DNA of 64,000 nucleotides from the NCBI GenBank assembly GCA_028284705.1, contig JANQRE010000020.1, positions 1 through 64,000 on the forward strand. The letters are read 5' to 3'. A model generated the notes under the pieces. The model saw only the letters and a list, made by a program, of their open reading frames with translations, ran no database searches and had not been told where the DNA came from. This stretch comes from Paracoccaceae bacterium (lineage in GTDB: Bacteria > Pseudomonadota > Alphaproteobacteria > Rhodobacterales > Rhodobacteraceae). The position numbers were made by a program, and so were the translations under genes. Below are positions 20,374 to 48,547 of this stretch, one piece after another; position 1 is the stretch's first letter, and each line of letters begins with the position of its first letter.

Positions 20374-20450
20374 GCGCTGGTAGCTCAGTTGGATAGAGTA
20401 CTTGACTACGAATCAAGGGGTCGGGGGTTCGAATCCTCCCCAGCGCGCCA
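20374..20450 (+). tRNA. tRNA-Arg (anticodon ACG)
   Basis: A complete 77-base tRNA: acceptor stem GCGCTGG/CCAGCGC, D arm GCTCAGTTGGATAGAG, anticodon stem CTTGA/TCAAG with loop CTACGAA giving anticodon ACG, T arm GGGGGTTCGAATCCTCC, discriminator G and an encoded CCA. ACG, read as ICG after deamination, decodes CGU/CGC/CGA. Its 3' part is repeated exactly 28 kb downstream, so it served as the integration target of a mobile island. Confidence 0.97.
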
Positions 20451-20451
20451 T
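20406..20451 (+). repeat. Left copy of the 46-bp attachment-site repeat (in tRNA-Arg)
   Basis: The repeat begins CTACGAATC in the anticodon loop and runs through the CCA end plus one T. It is identical to 48502-48547. Because integrases that use tRNA genes rebuild the 3' end with element-borne sequence, the tRNA stays intact at this junction. Confidence 0.92.
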
Positions 20452-20807
20452 ATAAATCAAACACTTAACGTCTATTCTGTTTTGGCTCGCGCTCCCCGTG
20501 TAAGCAATTTTTAACCAGGAATCGAGTTTCAAAGCTATCCGTGGATCTAGCGATTACAAAAAAGACGGTAGTACAAAACACCTGATCCCGCGAAGAATTC
20601 CTATACTTATTTCAGGGTCCCATACTCCAGAGACTTATGCTCGTTTCGTCAGAGTACAAGAACGGCGGAAGGTCGCTGCACTGAACTCCGTCTGAGAAAC
20701 CCTTAGGTTGGAGAGACGGCTCAAAGCATGCGTAATTGGGCTGACCCTGAACAGAGGCCGAGCTCCCGATAGGATCACAGGACATCTGTGAGCAAGGGAG
20801 ATTTCGA
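20452..20807. other. Non-coding stretch between the left attachment site and the IS remnant
   Basis: About 355 bases, visibly more AT-rich than the flanking backbone. I see no gene, RNA or repeat here. Short open frames on the minus strand have no support. GCAAGGGAG just before ATG 20808 is the ribosome binding site of the transposase remnant. Confidence 0.5.
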
Positions 20808-21839
20808 ATGGAGTATTTTGCAGGTTTGGACGTGTCATTGCAGTCCTGCGCGGTTTGTATCGTCGATAGTAAGGGCACGGTCCTGCATGAGCGAGAACTG
20901 CCCTGTGAGATTGAAGAGCTCGCAGGTTATCTGACCGCGCTCGCAATGCCGATCGAGCGCATCGGGTTCGAATCCGGCACTTTAAGCCAGCATTAGTTCT
21001 ATGGATTGAAGGCAAAAGGGTTCGACGTCGTCTGCATGGAAGCGCGGCAGGTGAGCGCTGCGCTGTCCGCGATGCCCAACAAGACGGATCGCACCGACGC
21101 GCACGGCATTGCCCAAATCCTGCGGACGGGTTGGTTTAGCCCCGTTCACATGAAGAGCCGGGAGGCGCATGGGGTTCGGGCCCTTTTGAGCACACGGAAG
21201 GCCTTGCTGAGCAAGACCATGACCTGGCCAATGAAGTGCGCGGTCTGCTGAAGATCTTTGGCATCCGCCTGCCGAGGACCGTCAAGCACGGCAGCTTTGA
21301 CGGTGTTGCTAGGCCGATGATCGAGATGGACGAAGTTCTGGCCCATGCCATGCTTCCGCTGCTCGATACTCGGCTGGTTCTGCATCAGCACTTCCTCGAG
21401 TTGGATCGACGGGTCAAACGCGCGGCCAGTCAGGATAAGGTCTGCATGCGCATGATGACGGTTCCCGGGGTCGGGCCGATCGCAGCTTTGACCTTCAAGG
21501 CCGCGGTCGACGATCCTTCGCGGTTCAAACGCTCACGCACCGTGGCCGCCGATTTTGGCCTGACGCCCAGGCGGTACCAGTCTGGCGAACACGACAACCC
21601 GGGCCGGATATCGAAGTCCGGGGATCAAGATGTGAGGGCCACGCTCTATGCCGCTGCCAACGCCTTGCTGATGCGGGCCGTGGCGGGGTCGCAGATTAAA
21701 TCATGGGCATGCGCCTGATGCGCACAAAGGGACGCCGCCGTGCAGTCGTTGCCGCTGCCCGCAAACTGGCTGTCCTCTTCACCGGATGTGGGTAGATAGC
21801 GCAGAGTTCCGTTCAGAAGTGATGGAGGGCACGGCATGA
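20808..21839 (+). pseudogene. IS110-family transposase, broken
   Basis: The pieces together read as one IS110 (DEDD) transposase. The start is MEYFAGLDVSLQSCAVCIVD, with the first catalytic Asp in GLDVS. Then come NKTDRTDAHGIAQILRTGW, the MMTVPGVGPIAALTFKAAV helix-hairpin-helix, FGLTPRRYQSGE, and a tail ending HRMWVDSAEF at TGA 21837. A TAG replaces a Leu codon at 20994-20996. The frame then moves by -1 near 21220, again near 21705 and again near 21778, which finally restores the first frame. It must therefore be inactive. IS110 elements lack clear terminal inverted repeats, so the element ends cannot be placed exactly. Confidence 0.9.
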
Positions 21840-22018
21840 TCCTCGGCCCTATTGAACGAAGTGTTGGCCGCGCTCTTCTGATCAGCCGGGGCGACGCGAC
21901 GGAGTTAGTGGCCCGGCCAATCTCTGCTGTGCTGGCAATCGCGACTGTGCTTGTCATTCTTTGGTCGATCTACAAAGCGCTGCGTGGCCGGAAAGCCAGT
22001 TCACAGAGCGAGGTATGA
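21836..22018 (+). pseudogene. C-terminal remnant of a TctA-type transporter subunit
   Basis: Sixty codons read MILGPIERSVGRALLISRGD at the start and continue with ARPISAVLAIATVLVILW. This is the usual final segment of TctA proteins of the tripartite tricarboxylate transporter family, whose complete form is about 500 residues. The rest of the gene is gone, replaced by the IS110 remnant whose stop codon overlaps it. It does not resemble the C-terminus of the complete tctA at 61.8 kb closely, so it comes from a different transporter. Confidence 0.7.
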
Positions 22019-22166
22019 TTACCAAAGACACCGCCAATGACTTTCGCAAATTCATTCAATGGCACGGGTACAGAAATGATACGCAACCCACGCGTTCGAC
22101 CCATGCGAAATCAGTGGTTGCTTGGATATGGAAATCAGCGACGGCGAATGAAAGGCGACGGAAAGT

Positions 22167-23324
22167 TCACGCCGCCCATAGTTTCTTGCTCGCCAGCTCA
22201 GCTCCTTCCGCCAGAGCTTTGAGTTTTGCCCAGACAACCCGGTTTTCCACCTCGGTCTTGTAGATCGCCTGGCTTGAAAAGCCGCAATCTGTCGAGGCGA
22301 TGACGTTCTCGCGGCCTACACGATCCGCAAAACGGATGATGCGCTCGGCGATGTATTCGGGGTGTTCGACCACGCTGGAAGCATGTGTTATGACGCCTGG
22401 CAGGATGTGCTTGCCATCGGGCAGTTTCAAATGCTCCCACAGGTGATATTCGTGCTCGTGTCGGGGGTTGCCCGCTTCAAACGAATATGCGCCTGCATTC
22501 ACTTTCAGCACCTCGTTCACCATCATCGGTAGGTCGGGTTCGTAGATGCGCGGCCCTTGGTTGATGCCGTAACAGGTATGGTAGCGAATCTTTTCTGCCG
22601 GAATGCCCTTGATGGAGTGGTTCACGGTCTCGACGTACATATTCGCCTTGGCAATGCGCGCTGCATCATCGAGTGATTTGTCCATATAGACATGTGGCAG
22701 GAACGGATCATCAACCTGTAGCAGGAACCCGGCGTCGATGATGGTGTTGTATTCGACCGCAAGCGCGTCGGCGACCGCGTACATGTATTCTTCCTGGCTG
22801 GAATAATGCTCGTTGAACCCGACGCCCGTGACCGCAGCGCAGGGCATGAAGGCTTCGTCGACACCGTGCTTTTCACAGGACGCCCGCAGATTTTCGAGGT
22901 CTTTTCTCAAAGCATCATGGCCAACGTATTCAATCGGTCCGATGCAGCAGACCGGGTGTGCTGGAGCGATGGCACCGCCAAGGTGCGCGCGGGCAAAATA
23001 GTCTTCGTAGTATTCCGGGAACGCCTCTTTTTCGGCCGCGTAATAGCCCATGTCGTGACCCGGTCGCTGTTCGTAGCCTGACAAACGCTCCTCGATATAG
23101 ATCGCGTGGCCGGGCTTGGACATTTCCCCATCGGCGACGATGTCGATCCCCGCTGCAACCTGACTGGCGACCATGCGATCCACCGCATCGGCGACCTTCG
23201 CGTCATAGGCGGCCTCGTCCACCGGTTCACCGTCGAAACGCGCCTTGAGGACATCCAGAAGATCATGCGGACGCGGCAGGCTGCCGACGTGGCTGGTCAG
23301 AATTCGATCCGTGCTGTGCTTCAT
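22167..23324 (-). CDS. MetE-like (cobalamin-independent methionine synthase C-terminal fold) zinc protein
   Basis: A 385-residue TIM-barrel protein similar to the C-terminal half of MetE and to epoxyalkane:coenzyme M transferase. The zinc ligands of the family are in place: H249 and C251 in YHTCYG, E283 in FEAGNPRHEHE and C347 in ASTDCGF. The N-terminus is HVGSLPRP, typical of the stand-alone clade. It lacks the N-terminal MetE barrel, so it is unlikely to be a methionine synthase. A thiol-alkylating, demethylating or C-S bond reaction on the cluster's substrate is an inference. It is the last gene of the minus-strand ABC/sulfatase operon, 12 bases after the SDR gene. Confidence 0.82.
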   Translation of the reverse strand: MKHSTDRILTSHVGSLPRPHDLLDVLKARFDGEPVDEAAYDAKVADAVDRMVASQVAAGIDIVADGEMSKPGHAIYIEERLSGYEQRPGHDMGYYAAEKEAFPEYYEDYFARAHLGGAIAPAHPVCCIGPIEYVGHDALRKDLENLRASCEKHGVDEAFMPCAAVTGVGFNEHYSSQEEYMYAVADALAVEYNTIIDAGFLLQVDDPFLPHVYMDKSLDDAARIAKANMYVETVNHSIKGIPAEKIRYHTCYGINQGPRIYEPDLPMMVNEVLKVNAGAYSFEAGNPRHEHEYHLWEHLKLPDGKHILPGVITHASSVVEHPEYIAERIIRFADRVGRENVIASTDCGFSSQAIYKTEVENRVVWAKLKALAEGAELASKKLWAA

Positions 23325-23336
23325 GTGATTGGTCCT

Positions 23337-24083
23337 TCAGTAAATGCTGGCGCCACCATCCACCCGCATGACGGTCCCGGTGACCTTGCGGGCGGCGTCA
23401 GAGGCCAAAAAAAGCGCCATCTCGGCAACGTCTTCGGGGTCAGACGGTCCCAGAAGGGACTTCTGATAAATCGGGTTGTCAGGTTTGATAAAGGCCGCCA
23501 CGCGTTCTGTCAGAACGACGCCCGGGGCAAGTACATTCACGCGTACACCTTGTTCGGCCCATTGCATCGCCATGGCCCGGCTCATAGCCAGCACGCCGCC
23601 TTTCGACGCGGTGTAGGCATCAGCGCCATGCGTTCCGATCACGGCCCTGAGCGAGGACATGTTGATGATCGAGCCGCCGCCCGAATTGACCATTTCGGGG
23701 ATCACACGCCGACAGGTCAGAAGAGTGCCGTAGAGATCAACGCGGATGGTGCGCCAGAATTCGTCCAAATCAAGCTCGGTTACAGGACCGTCCGCCGTCG
23801 ATCCACCGCCTGCCGAGTTCATTAGAATGTCGATCTGGCCGAAGCGTTCCACGCCTGCACGGACCATGGCCTCAACATCGTCCTCGCTTGAGACATCGCC
23901 GCCAACCGCAAGCGCCTGGCCGCCTGATGCGTGTATTTCCGCCACAACGTCATCGGCGAATTCCTTTCGGAAATCGGCGAGGACAAGGGCCGCGCCTTCT
24001 CGGGCGAAGGCCAGCGCGGTGGCTTTCCCGATGCCATTGCCGCCGCCGGTGATCAATGCGGTCTTGCCGTCAAGTCGTGCCAT
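23337..24083 (-). CDS. SDR family oxidoreductase
   Basis: A 248-residue classical short-chain dehydrogenase. It has the cofactor motif TGGGNGIG, NSAGGG in place of NNAG, the catalytic serine in INMSSLRAV, YTASK, and a C-terminus DGGASIY. An Asp after the second beta strand (VLADFRKE) suggests NAD preference. It probably oxidises a hydroxyl of a sugar or sugar acid released in this pathway. Its start overlaps the preceding SDR gene by 14 bases. Confidence 0.88.
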   Translation of the reverse strand: MARLDGKTALITGGGNGIGKATALAFAREGAALVLADFRKEFADDVVAEIHASGGQALAVGGDVSSEDDVEAMVRAGVERFGQIDILMNSAGGGSTADGPVTELDLDEFWRTIRVDLYGTLLTCRRVIPEMVNSGGGSIINMSSLRAVIGTHGADAYTASKGGVLAMSRAMAMQWAEQGVRVNVLAPGVVLTERVAAFIKPDNPIYQKSLLGPSDPEDVAEMALFLASDAARKVTGTVMRVDGGASIY

Positions 24084-24801
24084 CGGATGCCTTCATTTTG
24101 ACGCCACCGATGGCCTGATCCGTCGGCAGGATTTCGAGGGTCGCGACATTTACATGCGCGGGCGCATCGGTTGCAAAAAGGATCGCTGCAGCAATATCCT
24201 TGGGATCGAGTTCGCGAATGCCAGTCGTGTTCATCGCATCCAGCCGCTCGCGATCGCCCTTGGCCGCATCATAAAACCCACTGGCCACCCGCCCGGGGCA
24301 GACCTCGGTCACGCGAAGCCCCGTCCCGACAAGCTCGTTTCGCAGGTTCTGGCTGAAGATGTGTACGGCTGCCTTTGACGCGCCGTAGAGCGAGGAAACC
24401 GCGGTGTGCAGCCCCGCGATGGAGCCGATATTGACGATATGGCCCGTGCGGCGTTTGATCATGCCGGGGAGTGTCGCGGCAGTGAGTTTCACCAGCGACG
24501 AAACGTTGATGTCAATCGCCTCTTGAATGATATGCGGCGCGGCGCCCACCAGACCGTCGATGCCATGCCCGACACCGGCGTTGTTGACGAGAATGGAAGG
24601 TTCAAAATCCGCAACCTTCTCGGACAAGGTGTCGTCGCGCACATCTGCGGCAAACACCTGTGCTCCGGTCTCTTCGGCCAGCGCCGCCAGCCGGTCCTTG
24701 CGACGAGCGACGGCCAATACATCGTGTCCGGCTTCGCGGTAGGACCGCACCGTGGCCGCGCCGATCCCGCTGGTTGCTCCTGTCACGACGACGCGTGTCA
24801 C
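24070..24801 (-). CDS. SDR family NAD(P)-dependent oxidoreductase
   Basis: A 243-residue short-chain dehydrogenase of the YdfG-like classical type. It has TGATSGIG at residues 7-14, VNNAGVGHG, the serine in NIGSIAGL, YGASK and CPGRVASGFY. ARRKDRL after the second strand suggests NADP use. Its start overlaps the sulfatase stop by four bases, so it is translated in step with the sulfatase and probably acts on the desulfated product or an early intermediate. Confidence 0.87.
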   Translation of the reverse strand: MTRVVVTGATSGIGAATVRSYREAGHDVLAVARRKDRLAALAEETGAQVFAADVRDDTLSEKVADFEPSILVNNAGVGHGIDGLVGAAPHIIQEAIDINVSSLVKLTAATLPGMIKRRTGHIVNIGSIAGLHTAVSSLYGASKAAVHIFSQNLRNELVGTGLRVTEVCPGRVASGFYDAAKGDRERLDAMNTTGIRELDPKDIAAAILFATDAPAHVNVATLEILPTDQAIGGVKMKASDGTT

Positions 24802-26300
24802 GTTTCCTCCGGCGTCTCAGGGAAGAAATTCATTAAGCCGCCCGGATTGACCGGCGGCACTGGCCATTGATGGCCGCGTGTCATGCCCAGCCCGCGATTG
24901 GGCGCAGGGCGATAAGCGCGGTTGGGCAGCCCTACTAATTCGCCGTCGGTGAGCCACTCCAGGTCGCTGCCATATAGGGACGCGACCAACTGCTCGGTGA
25001 GTGCTCCCCGGACATTGCCATAGGCCGGGTCCGCGGCGACATCGCGGCGCTCTTCGGGGTCGCGTTCGAGATCGAAAAGCTGGCTGCGGTTTCCGGCTGG
25101 GTAATAGACCAGCTTGTGCCGTCCGTCGTGGACCATCCGGTTCGATAGTTCACCCTCGCCGAACTCGCCATAAAGGTGTTCACGCGGTGCGCTCATCATG
25201 GATTGACCGGTGACGCTTTCGGGAATGTCGATGCCGGCAAGATCGAGCAGCGTCGGCATGATGTCGGCGAGGCAGACCAGCCGGTCGTCGGTCGCCCCGG
25301 CAGCGATACACGAACAGTCCTTCACACCCATCATCAACATCGGGATGTTGGCCGAAGGTTCGTAGAAATTTTGCTTTGCCCAGATACCGTGGTCGCCCAT
25401 TGTCTCGCCATGGTCCGAGGTGAATAGGACGATGGTGTTGTCCAATATGCCTTCTTCGCGCAGCGTCCCGAAGAGCGCCCCTACCTGTTGGTCGATCTGG
25501 GTGCAGAGCGCGTAGAAATGCCTCCGCGCCCAGGCGCCTTCTTTGGGCGAATAGGAATAGCGAGCGCGGTAGGCCTGAAGGAGGAGCGGCAATTCCGGAT
25601 CGTCGCACCAGTCCCCGGTGACCGGTTCATCCATCTCTACCCCGTCATAGAACCGCAAAAACCGCTCCGGCGGCACCAGGGGTGGATGGGGGTGGCGATA
25701 GCCCAGGTACCAGAACCCCGGACGCTTGGGATCGCGCCGACGGATGATCCGGCACATTGCATCGGTCGCCCAGTTGGTTGCATGCGCCTCTTCCGGCAGG
25801 TGCCAGCTTGTCGCTTCGTACCCGTTGTTCGAGATTCCGTGCCCGAACTGCCGACCTAGCCAGCCCCTGTCGCCGAGATAGATCTCGTAATCGTCGGTCA
25901 CGCCGTGATGGGTGCGGCCCTCGTCGTCCAGCAGTATATCGTCGAACCCCAGCCGGTCACGCTGTGGATAGGTGTGGGTCTTGCCGACACCGTAGGCCTG
26001 ATACCCCGCGTCGCGAAAGGTCTGCGCCATGGTTGGCAGATGCGCGGGCATCTCAAGCTTGGCCTGAAAGGTGCGGTCGCCATGGTCACGCGCCGAGGTG
26101 CCCGTCATCAGGGAACGGCGCGCGGGGATGCAAACCGGATGCTCGGAATAGGCATTAGTGAAACGCGTGCCACAGCGGGCAATCTGGTCGAGCGTCGGGG
26201 TTCGGACCACCGGATGACCTGCCGCGCCCAGAAGTCCCGCCGACCAGTGATCCGTAACAATCAACAAGATATTCGGTTGCGTATAGTCGCTTTGATACAT
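24798..26300 (-). CDS. Sulfatase (type I, Cys-type)
   Basis: A 500-residue alkaline phosphatase superfamily enzyme. The formylglycine site is C57-I-P-A-R61 within HPVCIPARRSLMTG. The metal site uses the Asp in IVTDHWS and SDHGETMGDHG. It hydrolyses a sulfate ester or possibly a phosphonate ester; the site alone cannot separate these. There is no signal peptide, so it acts in the cytoplasm after import by the adjacent ABC transporter. Its start shares one base with the permease stop. Activity requires a formylglycine-generating enzyme, which is not encoded in the window. Confidence 0.92.
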   Translation of the reverse strand: MYQSDYTQPNILLIVTDHWSAGLLGAAGHPVVRTPTLDQIARCGTRFTNAYSEHPVCIPARRSLMTGTSARDHGDRTFQAKLEMPAHLPTMAQTFRDAGYQAYGVGKTHTYPQRDRLGFDDILLDDEGRTHHGVTDDYEIYLGDRGWLGRQFGHGISNNGYEATSWHLPEEAHATNWATDAMCRIIRRRDPKRPGFWYLGYRHPHPPLVPPERFLRFYDGVEMDEPVTGDWCDDPELPLLLQAYRARYSYSPKEGAWARRHFYALCTQIDQQVGALFGTLREEGILDNTIVLFTSDHGETMGDHGIWAKQNFYEPSANIPMLMMGVKDCSCIAAGATDDRLVCLADIMPTLLDLAGIDIPESVTGQSMMSAPREHLYGEFGEGELSNRMVHDGRHKLVYYPAGNRSQLFDLERDPEERRDVAADPAYGNVRGALTEQLVASLYGSDLEWLTDGELVGLPNRAYRPAPNRGLGMTRGHQWPVPPVNPGGLMNFFPETPEET

Positions 26301-27130
26301 CAGCCCTTAACCGCGCCCGCTGTCATGCCCGCGATGATCTGTTTGGCCGCGAAGAAAGTAAAGATCAGCGGCGGGATCACGATGAGCGTGCCCATCGCCA
26401 TGATCCGCCCCCATTCCACCCCCTCTTCGGTGATGTGGCTCGCCGCCGCAACCGGCAAGGTGCGCGAGTTCCGACCGGTGAGCAGCAGGGCCAGGATAAA
26501 CTCGTTCCACGCGATCCGTAACGTAAAGATGCCGGCCACGGCGTAGCCTGACGACATCAGTGGCAACAGCACCCGGAAGAACACCTGAAGCGGCGTAGCA
26601 CCGTCCACAATTGCCGCTTCCTCAAGTTCCACCGGAATTTGCTTGAAGAACCCGAACAGCAGCCAGATCGCGAAGGGCAGTGAGATCGCCGTGTAAAGGA
26701 ACGTCAGCGCGGCAAGGTCGTTGTCGATCCCCGACAGCATGACAAATGCGAAGGCTGGAACTGCGATAACGGCGGGCGGCACCATGCGGACCATCAACGT
26801 AGCATTTGCCAGGAAGGTCCTGCCCACGAAACGGGTCCGCGCCAGCGCATAGGCGCAGAAGCCGCCGAATAGAAGCGTGATGAAGGTCGTTGCCCCCGCC
26901 ACAATCACCGAGTTCCAGAGGTACGTGTCGAACTTGCCGCGCCCCGTCAGAATGGCCTCATAATTGTCCATCGTCGGCACGAAGAAGAACCAGATGGGGA
27001 TGTCGCCCTGCAAGGTAACCTCGTCTTTGAGTGACGTGGATATCATCACCCAGATCGGCGCGAGCGACATGCAGGCCAAAAGGATTAGCGCTGTGTAGTA
27101 GTAGGTCAGGCGTACTTTTTCGTTCTGCAT
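26300..27130 (-). CDS. Carbohydrate ABC transporter permease (MalG type)
   Basis: A 276-residue inner-membrane permease with six hydrophobic segments. The EAA loop reads LEEAAIVDGATPLQVFFRVLLPL (about residues 165-187). An N-terminal LTYYYTALILLACMSLAPIWVMI and the TMDNYEAI segment are typical of MalG/UgpE-type subunits. It starts one base after the stop of its partner permease and forms the translocation pore with it. Confidence 0.94.
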   Translation of the reverse strand: MQNEKVRLTYYYTALILLACMSLAPIWVMISTSLKDEVTLQGDIPIWFFFVPTMDNYEAILTGRGKFDTYLWNSVIVAGATTFITLLFGGFCAYALARTRFVGRTFLANATLMVRMVPPAVIAVPAFAFVMLSGIDNDLAALTFLYTAISLPFAIWLLFGFFKQIPVELEEAAIVDGATPLQVFFRVLLPLMSSGYAVAGIFTLRIAWNEFILALLLTGRNSRTLPVAAASHITEEGVEWGRIMAMGTLIVIPPLIFTFFAAKQIIAGMTAGAVKG

Positions 27131-27131
27131 G

Positions 27132-28040
27132 TTAAACGTCCGAACGGGTTTTCATGGGGTTGGACAGCTTCAGGATCAACAAGCTCAGCCCGAAGACGAC
27201 CAGAATCAGCAGGACCGCGATGGCAGAGGCATAGCCCAGCTGCTGTGTCTCGAAGGCGCGTTTGTAGATGTGAAGCGACAGTAACTCGGTCGATCTGCCC
27301 GGGCCGCCGCCGGTCATGATCAGCATGACCTCGAGGCCACGGAACACGTCAATGATCCGCATAAGTAGCGCAATGATGATGATCGATTTGATCATCGGCA
27401 GCTTCACCAGGAAGACCTGTTGCCACCAGTTCGCTCCGTCGATCTCCGAGGCCTCCACAACTTCGGATGGCAGCGCCTGTAGGCCTGCAATGATGATGAT
27501 GAAGATGAACGGTGTCCACTGCCAGATGTCGGTAAAGACGATGGCAAAGAAGGCCAGTTGAGGATCGCCGAGCCAGACTTGTGGCTCCATCCCGAACCAG
27601 TTTGACATATAGTAGTTGATCCAACCAGCACGCGCATCGAACAGGTACCGCCAAATCAGCCCAACCACGACAGGTGACACCATCAAAGGCAGGATGAAGA
27701 TTGTCCGAAACAGCGAGGCGCCGCGAATGGGTTTTTCCAGCAGCAGCGCCAGACCGATCCCCAGCGTCATTTCAAGCAGAATGACCCAAAACCCAAAGCG
27801 CAAGGTAACACCAAGGACTTCCCAGACCTGCGGATCATTCAACATCCGCGCGAAGTTTACGAAACCGACCGCCTCGGCGTCGGCAAAGTCGCGCCCGATC
27901 TCCCAATCGAAGAACGACAGGTAAAATGCCATGAAGACCGGATAGAGCAGACCCACACCCATCAGCAGAACCGCCGGGGTCACGAAGGCGTAAGGCGTCA
28001 GCGAGCCCGGTTCCCATTTCGGTTTGGCGGTCGTCGTCAT
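27132..28040 (-). CDS. Sugar ABC transporter permease (MalF/UgpA type)
   Basis: A 302-residue inner-membrane permease with six hydrophobic segments. Its EAA loop is VVEASEIDGANWWQQVFLVKLP (about residues 186-207), and MTGGGPGRSTELLSLHIYKRAF is the conserved stretch found in UgpA-like subunits. It is downstream of the binding-protein gene with a hairpin in the 68-base gap, and CCTCCTCGCC-complement ribosome-binding bases lie in the same gap. Confidence 0.94.
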   Translation of the reverse strand: MTTTAKPKWEPGSLTPYAFVTPAVLLMGVGLLYPVFMAFYLSFFDWEIGRDFADAEAVGFVNFARMLNDPQVWEVLGVTLRFGFWVILLEMTLGIGLALLLEKPIRGASLFRTIFILPLMVSPVVVGLIWRYLFDARAGWINYYMSNWFGMEPQVWLGDPQLAFFAIVFTDIWQWTPFIFIIIIAGLQALPSEVVEASEIDGANWWQQVFLVKLPMIKSIIIIALLMRIIDVFRGLEVMLIMTGGGPGRSTELLSLHIYKRAFETQQLGYASAIAVLLILVVFGLSLLILKLSNPMKTRSDV

Positions 28041-28067
28041 CTCGGTCTTTCAGATTGAGGCGAGGAG

Positions 28068-28096
28068 GTCTCCGGGGCCTCTTTTACCCCGGAGAC
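28068..28096 (-). terminator. Hairpin between binding-protein and permease genes of the sugar ABC operon
   Basis: GTCTCCGGGG (28068-28077) and CCCCGGAGAC (28087-28096) form a perfect ten-base stem with a nine-base loop, just after the stop of the binding-protein gene on the minus strand. There is no strong T run, so partial termination or protection of the upstream mRNA is more likely than a full stop. Confidence 0.7.
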
Positions 28097-28108
28097 TGTG
28101 ACCTGGCG

Positions 28109-36690: not shown

Positions 36691-36691
36691 A

Positions 36692-40353: not shown

Positions 40354-41576
40354 CAGATCACCTTGATCTCGGGAATTGCGACAACGAATTTTGTGCCGTT
40401 GGTTGCGAGATGTGCATTCAAGCGCATCACCTCAGAGGCAATGTTCCATGGGAAGATGACCAAAAAGTCCGGGCGCTGCTCCGCCAAAACGGATGGATGC
40501 AATATGGGGATATGGCTTGCGGGAAGAAACTTACCAATTTTGGACTCGGCGGCATCACATACGAATGGCATGAGATCAGGGCGAATGCCTGCGTAGTTCA
40601 TCAGCGTGTTGCCTTTTGCGGCGGCGCCGTAGCCGGCAACAGAACGGCCGTTTCGCTTTGCCGCTATAAGAAAACTGACAAGACCATCTTTGACTGTATC
40701 GGCCTTGTCCTGAAAGGCTTGGTAGGTCGACGCCAATTGCAAACCCGCCCGCTTTTCAGCCGACAAAATCTGGTCCAGGGCGTCGGTCTTGCTGTGATCT
40801 GCCGCGGTCAGACAACCATATACCCTTAGACTACCGCCATGTGTTGCGAGCTCCTCAACGTCGAAGACACGCAAACCCACGGCCTCGAAAATCGATGTGA
40901 CGGTAAACAGGGAAAGATATGAGAAATGCTCATGATAAATCGTGTCGAACTGAGTATCGGCAATTAGCCGCATCAGGTGCGGAAACTCGAATGTCACCAC
41001 ACCTTGAGGTCGTAGCAGGTTTGCCACCCCGCTGACAAAGTCGTTGATATCTGGCACATGGGCCAGGACATTGTTTCCAATGATCAAGTCGGCGCGCTCA
41101 TCTGCATCAGCCATCTTCTGTCCAAGCGCTGCGCCGAAGAATTCCTGGCGCACCGGTACTCCGATCTTCCGGGCGGCCTCCGCGGTGCTTTGTGTCGGCT
41201 CTATGCCAAGGCAAGGAATGCCGGCTGCGACAAAATTCCTCAACAAATACCCGTCATTGGATGCGAGTTCGACAACGAAGCTGTCCTTATCAAGGCCCAG
41301 CCGCTGAGTGATCATGTCGCAATAGTCCGACGCATGTCTAAGCCAGCTTTTCGAAGTCGATGAGTAATACGCATAGTTTTCGCTAAATAGTTCCTCTGCC
41401 TCCGAGTAATCCTCGGTCTGAACCAGCCAACAGTTTGTACAGGTCAAGACACGCAGGGGATAAGTTACCTCCGGTTTACGCAAATCCGCCTCGGACAAAT
41501 ACGCATTGGAGGGCGGTGCGTAGCCAAGGTTCACAAACTCAAGCTTAAGCTCGAACTGACAATGACGGCACTTCAT
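40353..41576 (-). CDS. Sugar C-methyltransferase (TylCIII/NovU type)
   Basis: A 407-residue SAM-dependent enzyme. An N-terminal zinc-binding domain shows CRHC (residues 3-6) and CTNC about 45 residues later. The SAM fold has VVELASNDGYLLRNF, and the C-terminal domain contains YGAAAKGNTLMNY. These three parts define the NDP-4-ketohexose C-3-methyltransferases that create branched sugars. The start at 41576 overlaps the epimerase stop by four bases and gives the zinc domain its usual position. Confidence 0.9.
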   Translation of the reverse strand: MKCRHCQFELKLEFVNLGYAPPSNAYLSEADLRKPEVTYPLRVLTCTNCWLVQTEDYSEAEELFSENYAYYSSTSKSWLRHASDYCDMITQRLGLDKDSFVVELASNDGYLLRNFVAAGIPCLGIEPTQSTAEAARKIGVPVRQEFFGAALGQKMADADERADLIIGNNVLAHVPDINDFVSGVANLLRPQGVVTFEFPHLMRLIADTQFDTIYHEHFSYLSLFTVTSIFEAVGLRVFDVEELATHGGSLRVYGCLTAADHSKTDALDQILSAEKRAGLQLASTYQAFQDKADTVKDGLVSFLIAAKRNGRSVAGYGAAAKGNTLMNYAGIRPDLMPFVCDAAESKIGKFLPASHIPILHPSVLAEQRPDFLVIFPWNIASEVMRLNAHLATNGTKFVVAIPEIKVI

Positions 41577-42121
41577 ATGGCAACCGGAGTGGTAGACTTG
41601 AACGACGGATGCGCCGCATCGCGCTCCGACATATTTTTGATCGGCAACGGCCACTCAATGGCAAGCTCGGGATCGCGCAGGTTTACTGCCCCCTCGGATG
41701 CTGGGTGATAGGGCATTGAGTGACAATAATGAAGCTCGGCTGCTTCCGTGAGCGTTTGATAGCCGTGGGCACACCCCTCGGGAATATATACGCTTTCCAT
41801 GGCGACGCCATCGAGCGTTATCGCGCAAACTCGACCATAGCTATTTGACCGCGCGCGTAGGTCCACCAACACGTCAAAGACCTGACCCTTTACGCAGCGC
41901 ACAAGCTTGGCTTCGGCATATGGTGGCCGCTGAAAATGTAATCCACGAACCGTGCCTTTTTCCGTGTTTAAAGAGGTGTTCATCTGAGCCCACCGAGTAT
42001 TCAGACCTCGCTTTGTGAACTCGTCATCGCAATAGACCCGCGCAAACGCACCTCGATCGTCCAGAATCTTCTCGGGTGTGATTTTGAAAGCTCCGTCAAT
42101 GCTCAAGGGCTCGAACTTCAT
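41573..42121 (-). CDS. dTDP-4-dehydrorhamnose 3,5-epimerase family protein
   Basis: A 182-residue cupin of the RmlC family with ILDDRGAFARVYC, RGLHFQRPPYAEAKLVRC (catalytic His in GLHF), PEGCAHGYQTL and a C-terminal DPELAIEWPL. It epimerises C3 and/or C5 of a 4-keto-6-deoxysugar nucleotide. Since the neighbours make CDP-4-keto-6-deoxyglucose, the substrate is more likely a CDP sugar than a dTDP sugar. Four-base overlaps join it to rfbG upstream and to the C-methyltransferase gene downstream. Confidence 0.9.
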   Translation of the reverse strand: MKFEPLSIDGAFKITPEKILDDRGAFARVYCDDEFTKRGLNTRWAQMNTSLNTEKGTVRGLHFQRPPYAEAKLVRCVKGQVFDVLVDLRARSNSYGRVCAITLDGVAMESVYIPEGCAHGYQTLTEAAELHYCHSMPYHPASEGAVNLRDPELAIEWPLPIKNMSERDAAHPSFKSTTPVAI

Positions 42122-43164
42122 GTCTTACAGTAGGTCTCCAGATCTTGAAGTGTCATCTCCAAGGGGGACGCGCCTTCGTGAACACGCTTATACCAGGTCA
42201 TCGTTCTTGCGACCGCTTTTTCAAAGTTCCACTTCGGCTGCCAGTTTAGTTGCAGCCGTGCCTTTTCAATCGACAGCTTGAGCAGCCCGGCCTCGTGCGG
42301 TGCATTTTGATCGGATGAGGTGTGATACTCGCCATGCCAGGTTTGAAGCGCTGATTTGATCACATCCTCGACGGTCCGATTGTCGCTTTTTTCGGGGCCG
42401 AAGTTGAACGCGTCGGCGAATGCCGTGTTGCCATGTAATCTCTCCGCAAGCCGCAAATATCCGGACAGCGGTTCCAAAACATGCTGCCAGGGGCGGACGG
42501 CTTTCGGGTTCCTTGTCTCAATGGATTGGCCCTTTGAAAGTGCGCGGGCAATATCCGGAAGTAGGCGATTTTCGCACCAGTCCCCTCCTCCGATCACATT
42601 GCCGGCACGCGCTGAAGCCAGGGCCAGCGGCAACCCCTCCTGGGCGAACACGGAGCGATAGCTGTCAATCACGAGCTCGCTTCCGGCTTTACTCGCACTG
42701 TACGGATCGACACCTCCGAGACGATCAGTTTCGCGATACGCATGATCAGATTCAATGTTGTGATAGACTTTGTCCGTCGTGATCGCGACAATCGTTGCGG
42801 GCCTTGAAGCCTCGCGCAGCGCTTCCAGCAGAATGGCCGTACCCTGAACATTGGTTTGCCATGTGTTCAGAGTTTGCTCATAACTTCGAAGCACCAGCGA
42901 CTGCGCCGCAAAATGGAAGACAATTTCGGGTTGCACGTCTAAGACATAGTCAGACACCAGCACCTGGTTCCTGATATCCCCTATTCGGTGGTGAACCCGA
43001 TTTCCTAAGTCGAGCTGATCAAACAGTGCCGGTCTAGTGTCCGGCTCCAGAGCAAGACCATATACCTCTGCGCCCAGTTGATGCAGCCAAAGAGACATCC
43101 AGCTGCCTTTGAAACCGGTATGCCCGGTCAGCAATACACGCTTGGCACGCCAGAAGTCGGTCAA
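42118..43164 (-). CDS. rfbG: CDP-glucose 4,6-dehydratase
   Basis: A 348-residue extended SDR with TGHTGFKGSWMSLWL near residue 12, AAQSLVLRSY, YSASK as the catalytic pair, and RAGNVIGGGDW, all diagnostic of CDP-glucose 4,6-dehydratase. It makes CDP-4-keto-6-deoxyglucose. No ATG fits; TTG at 43164 overlaps the rfbF stop (CTTTGACC) and gives MTDFWRAKRVLLTG, which matches the expected N-terminus, so I take it as the start. Confidence 0.93.
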   Translation of the reverse strand: MTDFWRAKRVLLTGHTGFKGSWMSLWLHQLGAEVYGLALEPDTRPALFDQLDLGNRVHHRIGDIRNQVLVSDYVLDVQPEIVFHFAAQSLVLRSYEQTLNTWQTNVQGTAILLEALREASRPATIVAITTDKVYHNIESDHAYRETDRLGGVDPYSASKAGSELVIDSYRSVFAQEGLPLALASARAGNVIGGGDWCENRLLPDIARALSKGQSIETRNPKAVRPWQHVLEPLSGYLRLAERLHGNTAFADAFNFGPEKSDNRTVEDVIKSALQTWHGEYHTSSDQNAPHEAGLLKLSIEKARLQLNWQPKWNFEKAVARTMTWYKRVHEGASPLEMTLQDLETYCKT

Positions 43165-43931
43165 AGCCAGACTTTCCAGGGAGCCGTGCCGGAGTCCCAG
43201 AGGTCTTCCAGACGGTTTCGATCGCGCAAGGTATCCATCGCCTCCCAAAATCCGGCATGTTTGCGCACCGCCAGTTGCCCATCCTCAGCTGCGCTGACAA
43301 GTGCTTCTGACTCGAAAATTGAGGTGTCGTCGAATATCCGGTCCAGGATGGATGGCTCGCACACCATGAACCCTCCATTGATCCATTGGCCGTCACCTTT
43401 CGGTTTTTCGAGAAATTGTTTCACCTTTTCGCCATCAATATCAAGGGCTCCAAAACGGCCGGCTGGTTGAACGGCCGATATGGTTGCCTCGCAACCTTGC
43501 TTTTTGTGGAAAGCAATCAGGTCGGAAATATCGATGTTGCTGACCCCATCCCCATAGGTAAGGCAAAATGTGTCATCCAGATGATCCGCAATGCGTTTGA
43601 TGCGACCACCGGTTTGTGTGAGCTCGCCCGTATCAACAAGGGTTACTTTCCATGGTTCCGCCCGCTGTCGGTGGACTTGCAGTGAATCGTTAGCCAGATC
43701 GAAAGTGACATCGGACATGTGAAGCACGTAATTCGCGAAGTATTCCTTGATCACATAACCCCGGTAACCGCAGCACACCACAAACTCGGTGATGCCAAAA
43801 TGGCCGTAGATCTTCATGATGTGCCACAAAATCGGTCGACCGCCGATTTCGATCATCGGCTTTGGCTTCAGATGGCTTTCCTCGCTAATCCGTGTCCCTA
43901 ATCCACCGGCAAGAATTACGGCTTTCGTCAT
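43161..43931 (-). CDS. rfbF: Glucose-1-phosphate cytidylyltransferase
   Basis: A 256-residue nucleotidyltransferase with the signature MTKAVILAGGLGTRISEES, KPKPMIEIGGRPILWHIMK, LTYGDGVSNID (metal-binding Asp), and WINGGFMVCEPSILD. It makes CDP-glucose from CTP and glucose 1-phosphate and feeds rfbG. ATG 43931 is the start that gives this N-terminus; an ATG 60 bases upstream has none of the conserved sequence. It is first in a five-gene operon in which every gene overlaps the next. Confidence 0.95.
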   Translation of the reverse strand: MTKAVILAGGLGTRISEESHLKPKPMIEIGGRPILWHIMKIYGHFGITEFVVCCGYRGYVIKEYFANYVLHMSDVTFDLANDSLQVHRQRAEPWKVTLVDTGELTQTGGRIKRIADHLDDTFCLTYGDGVSNIDISDLIAFHKKQGCEATISAVQPAGRFGALDIDGEKVKQFLEKPKGDGQWINGGFMVCEPSILDRIFDDTSIFESEALVSAAEDGQLAVRKHAGFWEAMDTLRDRNRLEDLWDSGTAPWKVWL

Positions 43932-44094
43932 GCTGGTCCCTTGGTCCAAGTTGCTCAATGGGCTGGAATCTGATGCAAGTACTGTGCTCACTGAGTGATC
44001 GGATTACAAGTTTCGGTTGAACTTTCAACCGCTTGTCGGCTAGGGCAAACGACGATCGTAACGGACATTCGGCATTTGATTTCAGGACACTGGC

Positions 44095-45288
44095 GTGCAG
44101 CATCAACCCTCCACTTCTTGCCCTGTCTGCGACAACACGGAGGACAACCTCCGTTTGGACCATCGGGAGCGCGTTCCAACATTGCAGAACGTCGCGCTAA
44201 AGTCCCTAGACGCAGCCGTGGATTTTCCGACTGGATCGCTCGACATGATGTGGTGTGCGAGGTGCAGTTTTGTCTGGAATAATGCGTTCGATCCCAGCCG
44301 GATCTCATATGATGCGAGCTATAACAACGATGTGTCGTCCAGCGCTTACCACGTGGCGCATCTGGAAGCGATGGCAGATCGCGTTATCGCCTCAGTGCCG
44401 CGGAATCAACCCATACACTATGTCGAAATTGGATGTGGAGATGCCGACTTTCTGCGGCTAGTGGTAGACCGTTCCGGTGGCCGATGTATTTCTGCGGTAG
44501 GATTTGATCCATCTTATTCGGGCACCAACGACCTGCCCGCGGGGTTTCAATTTTACAGGTCGTTCTTCGGAGAAGCACAGCTCTCGCTGATACCTGAAGA
44601 AACAAACGTGATTTGCTCACGTCACACGATTGAACATGTTGCAGAAGTTCAATCCTTCGTCGGGGCCTTAGCACAGGCAGCAAGGAATGCTTCGAGCAAA
44701 CTATTCATCGAGACACCAGATGCGAATTGGATTTTGGCCCAGACTGCGTTTCAGGACTTCTTCTATGAGCACTGCTCGATCTACACCCCCGCTTCAATAG
44801 AAATGGTCCTTGATCGTCACGAGATGACAGCGAAATCGACTTCGGTGTACGGTGGTCAATACATGTGGACGGAAGCGAAGCTTCGAGAGGAGCACTCAAT
44901 TCAAGAGATTAAGGTCAACGCTGACCTTGCTTTGAAGTATCGGCACGAAAGCGCGCAGGTTATGCGCGATTGGGCGAACCACGTTCAAAACTTTGCCAAG
45001 GACGATCCCGTTGCCATCTGGGGCGCTGCTTCCAAGGGTGTTACATTCGCTCTGCTTCTGGCGGCACTCGACGATGCGGATGCTCAGATTGACTGTGCAA
45101 TTGACCTGAATGCGGCCAAACAGGGCTGCTTTCTACCTGTAACCGGTTTGCCGGTGGTCAGTCCTGCGGAGGCCAAGCATCGCGGAGTGCGTAACATCTT
45201 GGTCATGAACCCCAATTACACTGATGAGATATCCGACCGAATAAATCGAATGGACTGGAAAGCGGCAATCACGACCTTAAACAATTAG
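44095..45288 (+). CDS. Class I SAM methyltransferase with C-methyltransferase-like C-terminal domain
   Basis: A 397-residue protein with GTG start. The N-terminal zinc-binding motif is CPVC with CARC about 45 residues later. The SAM fold has YVEIGCGDADFL, and the C-terminal domain shows IWGAASKGVTFALLL, the same KG-type segment as in the sugar C-methyltransferase at 40.4 kb. It is a distant relative of that protein. It starts a plus-strand pair with the CmcI-like gene. A role in modifying the same or a second deoxysugar is inferred. Confidence 0.82.
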   Translation: MQHQPSTSCPVCDNTEDNLRLDHRERVPTLQNVALKSLDAAVDFPTGSLDMMWCARCSFVWNNAFDPSRISYDASYNNDVSSSAYHVAHLEAMADRVIASVPRNQPIHYVEIGCGDADFLRLVVDRSGGRCISAVGFDPSYSGTNDLPAGFQFYRSFFGEAQLSLIPEETNVICSRHTIEHVAEVQSFVGALAQAARNASSKLFIETPDANWILAQTAFQDFFYEHCSIYTPASIEMVLDRHEMTAKSTSVYGGQYMWTEAKLREEHSIQEIKVNADLALKYRHESAQVMRDWANHVQNFAKDDPVAIWGAASKGVTFALLLAALDDADAQIDCAIDLNAAKQGCFLPVTGLPVVSPAEAKHRGVRNILVMNPNYTDEISDRINRMDWKAAITTLNN

Positions 45289-45383
45289 GTTTGTGAAGAG
45301 GCCTCCCAATGGATATGCATTGCGTGATCCTGCGGAGCATTGGACCCTGACTCCGCGTAGACCCAATAGGCGAGCTCAGATCA

Positions 45384-46154
45384 GTGACCAATTTTGATGA
45401 AGAAGTGCAGCGGCGCATCGCCGGCAATCGAAATGACACCAATATGGTCGATGCTGCAGCGCGTTTTCTGGAGACGTCAACAAAGCCGAAATACTGCTAT
45501 AATTTCTCTTGGCAGGATCGTCCCATAATCCAGTACCCGCAAGATATCGTCGCGATGCAGGAACTGATCTGGAAAGTGAAACCTGATCTGATCATCGAAA
45601 CCGGTATCGCTCACGGGGGGTCGCTAGTCTTTAACGCTTCGATCTTGGCGCTGCTGGATATGAAAGAGGCAATCGAAGACGGCGTCTCGATTGATCCAGC
45701 GCAATCGAGACGTAAGGTTTTGGGAGTCGATATCGATATTAGAGACCATAATCGAGCGGCGATTGAAGCGCATCCGATGAGTTCACGAATTGAGATGATC
45801 CAAGGCTCCAGCATCGATGCAGGGATCGTCGCGAAAGTGAAGAAGATCGCGGACGACTATGAACGTGTCTTGGTTTGCCTCGATAGCAACCATACGCATG
45901 ACCATGTGCGCGCCGAACTGGAAGCTTACGCTCCACTCACGTCCATCGGCAGCTATTGTGTCGTGTTTGACACCTTGATCGAGGATATGCCAGGCGATAC
46001 CTACCCCGATCGCTCCTGGGGCCCGGGAAACAATCCGAAGACCGCCGTTTGGGAATATCTAAGAGACCACCACGAGTTCGAAATCGACACCACGATTGCG
46101 GACAAACTACTGATTACAGTCGCGCATGACGGTTTTTTGAAACGTATTTCCTAG
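45384..46154 (+). CDS. CmcI/rhamnosyl O-methyltransferase family protein
   Basis: A 256-residue protein that matches the cephalosporin hydroxylase/CmcI family: YCYNFSWQDRPIIQYPQDI, the SAM-binding IIETGIAHGGSLVF, GVDIDIRDHN, LDSNHTHDHV and VVFDTLIEDM. Members in surface-sugar clusters act as O-methyltransferases, for example on rhamnosyl units. GTG 45384 is the start. Its stop overlaps the stop of the convergent glycosyltransferase gene by three bases. Confidence 0.87.
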   Translation: MTNFDEEVQRRIAGNRNDTNMVDAAARFLETSTKPKYCYNFSWQDRPIIQYPQDIVAMQELIWKVKPDLIIETGIAHGGSLVFNASILALLDMKEAIEDGVSIDPAQSRRKVLGVDIDIRDHNRAAIEAHPMSSRIEMIQGSSIDAGIVAKVKKIADDYERVLVCLDSNHTHDHVRAELEAYAPLTSIGSYCVVFDTLIEDMPGDTYPDRSWGPGNNPKTAVWEYLRDHHEFEIDTTIADKLLITVAHDGFLKRIS

Positions 46155-47395
46155 AGTTGGCGTTCAAACGATTTTGACCTCCTCAAGGCGGCTTTCCAAG
46201 CGCTCCTCTGCGAGATTGCGCGACTAAGAATCTCACCAAATTCGGTGCCCAATATCTGATCGTATACTTGTACTGCCGTCAGAATAGTGTTCTCACCACC
46301 AAGCTCAGTTGACACCCTGAAACTGTTGAGTTGATCGCCTATGCGACCCAGGCGCTCCTTCAAAGTTCGTTTCGGCTTTCGAGCCATCGACATCGCGGCT
46401 TCAAACTCATCATACGTCCCGTGGGCCTTGGCATAGTCGGACAAGATTGACTGGACCGCCTTGAGCGTTTCGGGATCATCTCGCGCGGCGCTCATCCCAT
46501 AACGATACCATTCTTCGTAGTTCGGACGTGTGTCTTCATAACCCATCCGACCAATCACAGTTTCTAGCGTTGAAAAAAAAGCCATTGGCACGGTCAAGGC
46601 GTGATCAAATGCATCCTGTAAGGGATCTTTCCGGTTTTCAGCCGTGAATGCCCGACCAGCGTCGCCGCCATCTTTGTCTTTGCGGCGCATGTTGTGCGCT
46701 CCACCTGTACTTGCTGGACTATACCCATTTATCGAAAACGGGTGGTCGGTGTGAATGAAGCGGCCACCCGTGAGGATCGATCGATACTCAAAATTTACAT
46801 CCGGAATCGAGCTGTCAAAATAGATGTCCCGGCTCGGTGCGATCTTATCGAGATAGGCCCGGGAAACACAGCCGTGATAGAGGTTCGGCGTCACCGCGTG
46901 CACGTAGTTAATCCGGCAATCCATCAATCCAGACAGGTTTCTCTCCTTCGGATCGTAGATTAATTCGGGCCCAAAAACACCATTCCGGTATATTCTCAAG
47001 CCGCCCGTTTTTTTGCCGTAGCCCGCGACCGGCCAACCATATGTCGCGCGTTTCCACGACACACCGTCGGGCTTATGCTTTTCAATTATCCGGCGTAGAA
47101 ACTTAAACTGAACGGGCAAAATGCCATCGTCGTCCCCGAAAAAGGTTACATAGTCGCCGGAGCTTGCCTGCAACGCGAAGTTGAAATTTTCACGCATCGA
47201 AAGGCGTGTATCAGTGTTGATGTAAACCAACCTCGCATCGTTGAACTGCGCCACAACCTCTGCCGTGCCATCCTGGCTGGCATTGTCGCAAACCACAATT
47301 TCGATGTCGTCGTCCTGGATGTTGAGGGCGGTCCGAATGGAATACGCGAGGTAAGCTGCGCGTTCGCGAGTTGGTATAACGACGCTCATTTTCAT
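46151..47395 (-). CDS. Family 2 glycosyltransferase
   Basis: A 414-residue GT-A glycosyltransferase. It begins MKMSVVIPTRERAAYLAYSI after the first two residues, has EIVVCDNASQDGT and the metal-binding acidic cluster FFGDDDGILP near residue 85, and carries a long C-terminal extension of about 180 residues of unknown role. It is likely to transfer the branched sugar to a surface polysaccharide or glycolipid. The start is ATG 47395 or 47389; the frame is open further upstream without a ribosome binding site. Confidence 0.88.
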   Translation of the reverse strand: MKMSVVIPTRERAAYLAYSIRTALNIQDDDIEIVVCDNASQDGTAEVVAQFNDARLVYINTDTRLSMRENFNFALQASSGDYVTFFGDDDGILPVQFKFLRRIIEKHKPDGVSWKRATYGWPVAGYGKKTGGLRIYRNGVFGPELIYDPKERNLSGLMDCRINYVHAVTPNLYHGCVSRAYLDKIAPSRDIYFDSSIPDVNFEYRSILTGGRFIHTDHPFSINGYSPASTGGAHNMRRKDKDGGDAGRAFTAENRKDPLQDAFDHALTVPMAFFSTLETVIGRMGYEDTRPNYEEWYRYGMSAARDDPETLKAVQSILSDYAKAHGTYDEFEAAMSMARKPKRTLKERLGRIGDQLNSFRVSTELGGENTILTAVQVYDQILGTEFGEILSRAISQRSAWKAALRRSKSFERQL

Positions 47396-47750
47396 GTTGG
47401 GCCCGCGTTGCTGTAAGAGCACTACTTGACGCCTGGGATTGTATGGACGCAAGCCTTTTCCCTAGGCGCGGTCTCCCGTCGTCTATTCAAGTTAAACGAA
47501 TCGTCCGTCGATATAGGACAACAAATCACAGCGAAAACTGATATTCATCTCGCAGAAGCTGGCGCTCTGGGACACTGGCTCTCCATCGGAGGCAGCTTCA
47601 TTTCGCCTCAACCCCGTACGAAGCAGCAACTCAAAGACTCGGTTGATCGACCGGGCGGACCTTTATGGAGGCTTGACCATAACCTAGAGAATTGATCCCT
47701 ACTTAGGTGAGTTGTTCTTCGCCTTGGCTTGGCCCACTTTTTGAGGTCAC
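47396..47750. other. Gene-free stretch between the glycosyltransferase and integrase genes
   Basis: About 355 bases. A plus-strand open frame of 89 codons (47426-47695) has no ribosome binding site or recognisable sequence, so I do not call it. This is where the missing catalytic half of the integrase gene should lie, but no catalytic R-H-R-Y motifs are visible on the minus strand here. Confidence 0.5.
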
Positions 47751-48329
47751 TTAATCGCCGAGCCGGGTTTCAGGAAGCACATATGTTCCATCCGCGTTTG
47801 CGGTGTCGGCGCGAGCGAAATTCCACAATACTCTAAAGACTCGGGCGGCCCCATTCGCGACTGATGTTGAGCGCTTCGAAATTCGCTCGTATCGCTGAAC
47901 AAGCATTGCGGGAGTGATGAACTGAAGTTCCTTCGTCAGCCAATCGCCAAAGTTGTTCTCAATCAAGCTTCGGTTCGCGGCAGCAGTCGCCTTCTTAAGG
48001 TCACGACCCATCAGATAAGCGTCAAGCGCATCACCCAGAGTGATCGTCTTTGCGCGGGCCTCTCGCTTCGCTTTGTTCAAGTCGATGTCGCTGGCCATCG
48101 CTCCCAGCTTTTTCTTCGCCTCTCGGCGGGCCTCATCAATTGTGAAAACTGACACGTCTCCGATTGTGACACGTTGCGTGCGCCCATGACCGCGAGCTTG
48201 GGCAACGTAGACCTTCCGAGCGCTGGTTACTCGGACTCCAAATCCTTGAAGCTTGTCTTCCCAGCAGAGCAACTGACCTTTTTTAGGGTGAGAAAGGTTG
48301 GCGATAGACTTGGCGTTTAAGGCGACCAT
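47751..48329 (-). pseudogene. Tyrosine-recombinase integrase, truncated
   Basis: The frame encodes 192 residues. The N-terminal Arm DNA-binding domain (DUF4102 type) is clear: LSHPKKGQLLCWEDKLQGFG then VRVTSARKVYVAQARGHGRT and RRVTIGDVSVFTIDEARREA-like sequence. A SAM-like core-binding domain follows, KTITLGDALDAYLMGRDLKK, with WLTKELQFITPAMLVQRYE. It stops after VLWNFARADTANADGTYVLP, exactly where the catalytic domain of about 190 residues should begin. It is the integrase of the island and should be inactive. The start may lie upstream at 48392. Confidence 0.85.
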
Positions 48330-48501
48330 TGGCGAAATCTCTGAAGTTAGGTGCCGTCCGCGTGTAATCAAGTTGTAAGCAAGCGGACGCAAATCTTAGA
48401 AAACCACCGCACACAATGATTTCCTGTAACACAATGAAAAATATGAACTTTTAAAGGTATCGCAGAATATCGCGGAATTCAGCAAACACAACATATAGCG
48501 T

Positions 48502-48547
48502 CTACGAATCAAGGGGTCGGGGGTTCGAATCCTCCCCAGCGCGCCAT
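48502..48547 (+). repeat. Right copy of the 46-bp attachment-site repeat (tRNA-Arg 3' fragment)
   Basis: Identical to 20406-20451, from the anticodon loop through CCA plus T. There is no 5' half of a tRNA here, so it is not a functional tRNA. It is the displaced 3' end of the original tRNA-Arg gene and marks the right end of the island, 173 bases beyond the truncated integrase. Confidence 0.92.

Follow-up and report, generated by a model that had tools for sequence, protein, structure and literature searches.

We found that the window analysed here, the first 64,000 nucleotides of contig JANQRE010000020.1 of a Paracoccaceae bacterium, very probably contains an immobilised, perhaps composite tRNA island, a 28-kb block in the tRNA-Arg(ACG) gene that lies beside other acquired DNA in a hotspot between this gene and mipZ. 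An earlier, sequence-only reading of the window had proposed a 28-kb island in tRNA-Arg; its repeat-bounded ends, the empty or nearly empty tRNA-Arg/mipZ sites of other genera and a counterpart in a related genome (G011) bear the proposal out, but the acquired DNA reaches further than that reading supposed, to about 45 kb in all. The mechanism itself is well known, and the case is one of an ordinary mechanism with a clean anatomy.

The block is bounded by a 46-base direct repeat whose copies are identical and cannot be extended on either side, so that the exact copy of the tRNA-Arg 3' end reported earlier at 48502-48547 stands as described. The repeat runs from two bases ahead of the anticodon to one base past the CCA, and is made up of the final 45 bases of tRNA-Arg(ACG) plus one base; by arithmetic, the chance expectation for such a repeat in 64 kb of random sequence is about 4e-19. 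With up to three mismatches allowed, the 45-base core occurs at two places in the genome, both at this locus, and the three further places matched by the tRNA stretch are 73–79% identical. The 3' half of tRNA-Arg(ACG) from 20406 is the restored target (left attachment site, attL). When the locus is held against the definition of a tRNA island used by Islander, the displaced tRNA fragment is found on the same replicon, downstream and in direct orientation, and is exact over 46 bp.

An open reading frame (ORF) of the integrase type lies 109 bp from the right copy and points inward; its position and orientation are thus as first read, but the enzyme is not intact. The only Pfam match of this ORF is Arm-DNA-bind_3, and neither NCBIfam nor PHROGs returned a match to it. 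Integrase-related matches at 1e-8 were present in 27 of 129 family genomes, our own included, and of the 11 homologs extracted from the returned family loci, 10 have ORFs of 376–474 aa that align through the catalytic domain (the other has 308 aa); in alignment with these, the window integrase, taken as 192 aa from its ATG, ends ahead of that domain. Inspection by eye of 46100-48500 in all three minus-strand frames showed no remnant of the catalytic domain, and PF00589, found at eight places in the genome (seven above the cut-off), has no match on the window's contig. The intact tyrosine-recombinase gene that Islander places inside the interval is thus represented here by an N-terminal half, and an active integrase was rejected as a candidate, the arm-binding half being kept and the catalytic domain absent. 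Without its catalytic domain, the integrase has probably left the block immobile, barring help in trans from another recombinase; the eight PF00589 places elsewhere in the genome make such help possible, though unsupported. We take tyrosine recombinases with an Arm-DNA-bind_3 domain to be P4-like.

In G011, a relative within the genus, an exact 45-base tRNA fragment lies 606 bp from mipZ, and the integrase, here intact (369 aa, PF00589 and PF13356), is placed and oriented as in the window. A 21-bp repeat occurs near both ends of this island, which occupies C6:1-10821 and C1:914160-950320 in an assembly broken between the two contigs. The G011 island resembles that of the window in its tRNA, its 45-base fragment and the position and orientation of its integrase; it differs in having the catalytic domain and, 2.4–3.6 kb from the tRNA, a TrwB/TraG-type coupling-protein domain.

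The chromosome to the left of the tRNA is conserved among relatives. At 19 loci compared on this side (18 of the same genus and one of another), the genes for the VTT, lipoamide-dehydrogenase-like and histidine-kinase proteins precede tRNA-Arg in every case, the PP-loop gene is present at 18, and yidC at 9 within the limited lengths that were fetched. Downstream of the tRNA, 18 loci (17 of the genus and one of another) were compared over up to 12 kb, two of them over only 1.9 and 3.0 kb. ORF clustering gave content unlike that of the window at all 17 genus loci, save for one generic ATP-binding cassette (ABC) ATPase match, and G001 and G009 alone had downstream content in common. The genus loci thus differ from the window and, one pair excepted, from each other, which is the sporadic distribution looked for in tRNA islands. 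Likewise, no protein cluster occurred at more than 4 of 80 tRNA-Arg(ACG) loci in a wider set (99 loci entered, of which 19 without an ACG tRNA-Arg were dropped; 12 of the 80 reach less than 1 kb beyond the tRNA, and one genome or more is represented twice).

Of the 129 family genomes (our own included), 88 matched the tRNA pattern and 121 have mipZ; both lie on one contig in 25 genomes besides our own. The gaps between the two span 0.4–194 kb. Empty or nearly empty sites were seen in four other genera, where tRNA-Arg and mipZ are separated by 395 bp (G102), 604 bp (G147), 1,133 bp (G160) and 3,061 bp (G133); the three left genes keep their place there, as does a TrmD-like gene. As uninterrupted sites they show the tRNA-mipZ interval as a whole, rather than the 28-kb block by itself, to be an insertion. 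Within the genus the interval measures about 36.4 kb in G001 and in G009, 39.6 kb in G004, 24.7 kb in G002 and 60 kb in G018, as compared with 45.2 kb in the window's genome. In the literature we found nothing that combines genomic island, tRNA-Arg and Rhodobacteraceae.

The sequence-only reading had the native chromosome resume at 48548, for which we find no support. Matches to the 15.5 kb between 48548 and 64000 occur in 15 of 21 genus genomes (our own included), mostly as single short pieces; G015 shows a colinear run of short matches over the DctM and sulfatase genes, and G005 has a counterpart to the part at 57.8–64.9 kb, 68–71% identical, which is inverted and near mipZ, its tRNA-Arg being on another contig. 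The next 20 kb of the contig, in contrast, are matched in 21 of 21 genus genomes, and the matches listed for each of the 20 relatives include mipZ. Because the 15.5 kb are mostly unmatched whereas mipZ is matched throughout, we conclude that the 28 kb are the tRNA-proximal part of an acquired stretch of about 45 kb, and, since conserved DNA starts at the small gene and mipZ, that this stretch begins at 20451 and ends at a point between 64961 and 65356. A shared native flank beginning at 48548 was accordingly rejected. Relatives of the small gene ahead of mipZ (65356-65679) stand beside mipZ in 5 of 16 genus genomes compared (G001, G009, G011, G014 and G008). The names trmD, rimM, rpsP and ffh for the neighbours of mipZ were assigned from translations.

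Several observations weigh against an integrase-borne island in a shared hotspot. mipZ lies downstream in the window's orientation in only 12 of the 25 family genomes with both markers on one contig, and not in 13; within the genus it is not downstream of the tRNA in three (G006, G012 and G020) of the eight relatives with both on one contig, the remaining genus relatives having them on separate contigs. The comparison was made across species and genera with one genome per species, and contains no same-species genome lacking the block. The integrases of G011 and the window are 27% identical over 166 aa, so that the G011 island is an analogue and not the same element, and it appears that more than one element uses this tRNA. 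The longest motif common to both ends of the 28-kb block is 9 bp, a length reached or exceeded in 95 of 300 shuffles, and arm-type repeats at these ends were rejected because such a match is at chance level. Finally, most of the block is host-like in base composition: its catabolic segment (22167-38616) has a guanine-plus-cytosine (GC) content of 0.590, and the core mean is 0.595 (standard deviation 0.022, 74 1-kb windows).

A GC step at both repeats, for which the sequence-only reading had suggested looking, is not seen; a sustained step occurs instead at about 38 kb, and only 38.6–48.5 kb is shifted throughout (about 0.51–0.53), with 0.527 in the deoxysugar segment (38617-47452) and 0.513 in the integrase region. 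The left end shows only two separate 1-kb dips (20001: 0.544; 22001: 0.548), GC climbs gradually at the right repeat, and the right compartment has a GC of 0.585 with a lone 1-kb dip (55001: 0.539). GC at third codon positions is 0.54–0.60 in the deoxysugar and integrase part and 0.65–0.80 in the genes of the catabolic block, except at 37393-38616 (0.58), which is at the junction. Tetranucleotide profiles were judged against 31 core windows; when these are correlated one by one with the remainder of the core, the mean is 0.945 and the lowest value 0.912. Inside the block the correlations are 0.891 (22167-30166), 0.927 (30617-38616) and 0.883 (39511-47510), so that two of three 8-kb stretches fall under all 31 core windows, 30617-38616 being the exception; in the right compartment they are 0.906 (48548-56547) and 0.948 (57356-65355). 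These values indicate a mixed block and a right compartment whose far part is core-like by the tetranucleotide measure. The earlier claim that all interior material differs in character thus holds for the GC of 38617-48501 and for two tetranucleotide stretches, but not for the GC of 22167-38616. The block may accordingly be composite, the integrase and deoxysugar genes being low in GC and the catabolic genes host-like.

Comparison of the sequence after the right repeat with the tRNA flanks of relatives weakly suggests that the tRNA once lay directly ahead of 48548, which would make the right compartment the older one. A profile of nine picked flanks finds its best place in the window at 48553-48589, in register to within about a base (E 0.36); a profile of all 16 genus flanks, unpicked, has no match there. 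When the flank at 48548 was aligned locally with 17 flanks, two of them reached p = 0.003, of which L021 is in register and L022 is not; the flank on the attL side gave no such match to the 17. With the offset fixed, the best single match at 48548 is 23 of 39 (L021 and L062), which 6 of 9135 random windows reach, and the mean over 78 flanks is unremarkable, 819 of 9135 windows being as high; the attL side ranks higher by the mean (350 of 9135), and its best single match, 20, is reached by 255.

Alternatively, one could envision two events, in which the element brought by the integrase comprised no more than the low-GC deoxysugar segment (about 38.6–48.5 kb) and the catabolic segment (22.2–38.6 kb) was added later, between the tRNA and the element, through IS110 activity or homologous recombination. 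We give this reading slightly less than an even chance; it is compatible with the one favoured here but alters what the integrase moved. The fall in GC at about 38 kb and the parallel difference in third-position GC are what it would lead one to expect, as are the broken IS110-family transposase beside the tRNA and the lack of a motif common to the block's two ends. Islands often carry cargo of mixed origin, however, so that mixed GC does not date the joins. Nor is there a repeat of at least 25 bp or an IS-like family at the 38.6–39.5 kb junction, and near the tRNA the only other match to the core is 12 bp at 20964-20975, with no second tRNA fragment to mark an earlier left end.

One could also suppose that everything from tRNA-Arg to about 65.3 kb arrived as one insertion or as tandem site-specific insertions, the fragment at 48502 being an inner junction only. 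The absence of a shared flank in genus relatives from 48548 to 64000 and the sulfatase theme common to both sides of the fragment (see below) would agree with this, but we consider it unlikely. The contig has no PF00589 match and no tRNA-core match of at least 12 bp between 48547 and contig position 67000, and the top place of 48553-48589 in the nine-flank profile is as expected if the tRNA once adjoined it, although this is an E of 0.36 with picked flanks, and the set of 16 taken without picking gives no match there. In addition, the inverted counterpart in G005, near mipZ and with tRNA-Arg on another contig, suggests that the 57.8–64.9 kb part is independent of the 28-kb block. Far less probable still is that the right repeat is a stray tRNA pseudogene fragment in an ordinary variable stretch that owes its form to homologous recombination rather than site-specific integration. 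The integrase is indeed broken, and in one survey half of the hotspots were without evidence of mobile elements (PMC5635113); but the fragment is an exact 3' half in direct orientation, as a right attachment site (attR) should be, 109 bp from an integrase ORF and in the layout of the intact G011 island.

Under the favoured reading, a circular or transferred element bearing the 3' half of tRNA-Arg(ACG) would have recombined into the chromosomal tRNA gene within the anticodon-loop region, by means of an Arm-DNA-bind_3 tyrosine recombinase. The tRNA would have been completed by the element's copy of the 3' half, and the 3' fragment so displaced would have been carried 28 kb away to 48502-48547, where it now lies; the integrase would subsequently have lost the catalytic domain that is absent today. 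Together the 28-kb block and a second compartment of about 17 kb fill the interval from tRNA-Arg to mipZ. In the Islander description, islands carry an integrase gene described as putatively active, and the anticodon-centred subsite is the commoner class, with 2083 of 3919 islands (PMC4383910). The window matches that description in its restored tRNA gene, its direct downstream 3' fragment and the tyrosine-recombinase gene inside, and departs from it in that the integrase lacks its catalytic domain, which makes the block a remnant by that definition. Similarly, as in the hotspots between two core genes set out in PMC5635113, conserved neighbours (the tRNA-Arg side and mipZ) flank content that varies among relatives; those hotspots were defined within species, whereas ours is seen across species and genera.

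The sulfatase family PF00884 occurs at seven places in the genome, four of them within the tRNA-mipZ interval, one to the left and three to the right of the displaced fragment. All four carry CxPxR, presumably the sulfatase maturation motif. Judged by the names of gene families, the cargo may serve organosulfate use, and the deoxysugar genes may supply a branched deoxysugar for a surface polysaccharide. A Pfam scan of 30 ORFs of the block (E up to 0.001), which left aside the smaller ORFs, matched no relaxase, coupling-protein, type IV secretion system or phage structural or packaging family. PHROGs gave no phage structural gene on 10 block ORFs, the only matches being to an insertion sequence (IS) transposase, overlapped by a family of unknown function, to a nucleotide-sugar epimerase and to a glycosyltransferase of the GtrB-like kind; on both counts the absence of conjugation and phage genes noted earlier is upheld. 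The broken IS110 transposase, which had not been listed before, adjoins tRNA-Arg, and its first piece (20808-20996) is without a database match and was assigned by position only. A megablast of 38600-47500 against plasmids returned nothing. In distant searches, 22100-30000 matched 1496 records, the eight listed covering at most 21% at 64–69% identity and none covering 80% of the query, and 39500-47450 matched 119 records, all at 60–80% and none covering 80%; in some rhizobial megaplasmids, the genes under the latter matches are a methyltransferase gene, rfbG, rfbF and one of the cephalosporin-hydroxylase family.

Table 1. Features of the window and of the adjoining contig (contig positions equal window positions).
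Feature	Position	Strand	Content or remark
Conserved left flank	12440-19531		PP-loop protein, VTT protein, lipoamide-dehydrogenase-like protein, histidine kinase (Pfam names)
tRNA-Arg(ACG)	20374-20450	+	ARAGORN and Rfam; sole ACG copy found
Left copy of 46-bp direct repeat, attL core	20406-20451	+	Anticodon loop to CCA plus one base
Broken IS110-family transposase	20808-21718	+	Three frame pieces: 20808-20996, 21006-21251, 21236-21718
Catabolic block	22167-38616		MetE-like protein, short-chain dehydrogenases/reductases (SDRs), sulfatase, sugar ABC transporter (26300-30548), LacI regulator, CoA-transferase, enoyl-CoA hydratase, metallo-beta-lactamase (MBL) protein, 3-hydroxyacyl-CoA dehydrogenase, alcohol dehydrogenase, solute-binding protein
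Sulfatase with CIPAR motif	24798-26300	-	
Gene-poor junction	38617-39510		GC falls here; ORF 38948-39328 without recognised family
CDP-deoxysugar block	39511-47452		Besides the next three: two C-methyltransferase-domain proteins, epimerase-type protein, CmcI-type O-methyltransferase, family-2 glycosyltransferase
RmlC-like epimerase	41573-42121		Slightly under its cut-off
CDP-glucose 4,6-dehydratase	42118-43248		Above NCBI cut-off
Glucose-1-phosphate cytidylyltransferase	43161-43991		Above NCBI cut-off
Truncated tyrosine-recombinase integrase	47751-48392	-	213 aa (192 aa if started at the ATG at 48329); confined to the N-terminal half
Right copy of 46-bp repeat, attR core	48502-48547	+	Displaced 3' tRNA fragment
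Second acquired compartment	48548-64000, continuing to about 65.3 kb on the contig (about 17 kb in total)		LysR regulator, TAXI/DctM tripartite ATP-independent periplasmic (TRAP) transporter, tripartite tricarboxylate transporter, SDRs, MBL protein; no integrase found
Possible remnant of ancestral tRNA-Arg 3' flank	48553-48589	+	E 0.36, suggestive only
Sulfatases of second compartment	52735-54309, 58257-59687, 63435 onward		The last continues beyond the window end
Sulfatase/tripartite-transporter block	57845-63985		Counterpart G005:C238:12577-18602, inverted
Small gene and mipZ	contig 65356-66505		Conserved chromosome restarts; MipZ by Pfam

Other loci of the comparison showed features of their own. 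At L025, L026 and L057 (two genus genomes and Roseovarius gaetbuli), a common hairpin-like stretch and copies of TTAGTCTC lie just downstream of tRNA-Arg, as if one island family uses this tRNA across genera. At L065, of a Loktanella sp., two adjacent integrase-like ORFs lie 1651-4208 after tRNA-Arg. Beyond the window, at contig C7 67770-69479 (L035:3770-5479), a protein of 569 aa that carries the C-terminal domain of a phage tail sheath is encoded between mipZ and the trmD-like gene. Tandem acetyltransferase-like ORFs (family assigned by eye) lie at L035:10375-12621 between the rpsP-like and ffh-like genes, and matching DNA is listed there for several relatives.

A broader reading, which we put forward tentatively and hold to be somewhat doubtful, is that tRNA-Arg(ACG)/mipZ is an integration hotspot throughout the Rhodobacteraceae, in which successive insertions build functionally matched cargo. 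The organosulfate genes of the window, with four of the genome's seven sulfatases, would then derive from separate events flanking an internal attachment site, the outer island having been locked afterwards by loss of the catalytic domain. Our analysis corrects the end of the acquired DNA and describes a tRNA-Arg/mipZ hotspot with empty and filled versions in several genera, one in which the gain and fixation of catabolic genes in marine Rhodobacteraceae can be asked about.

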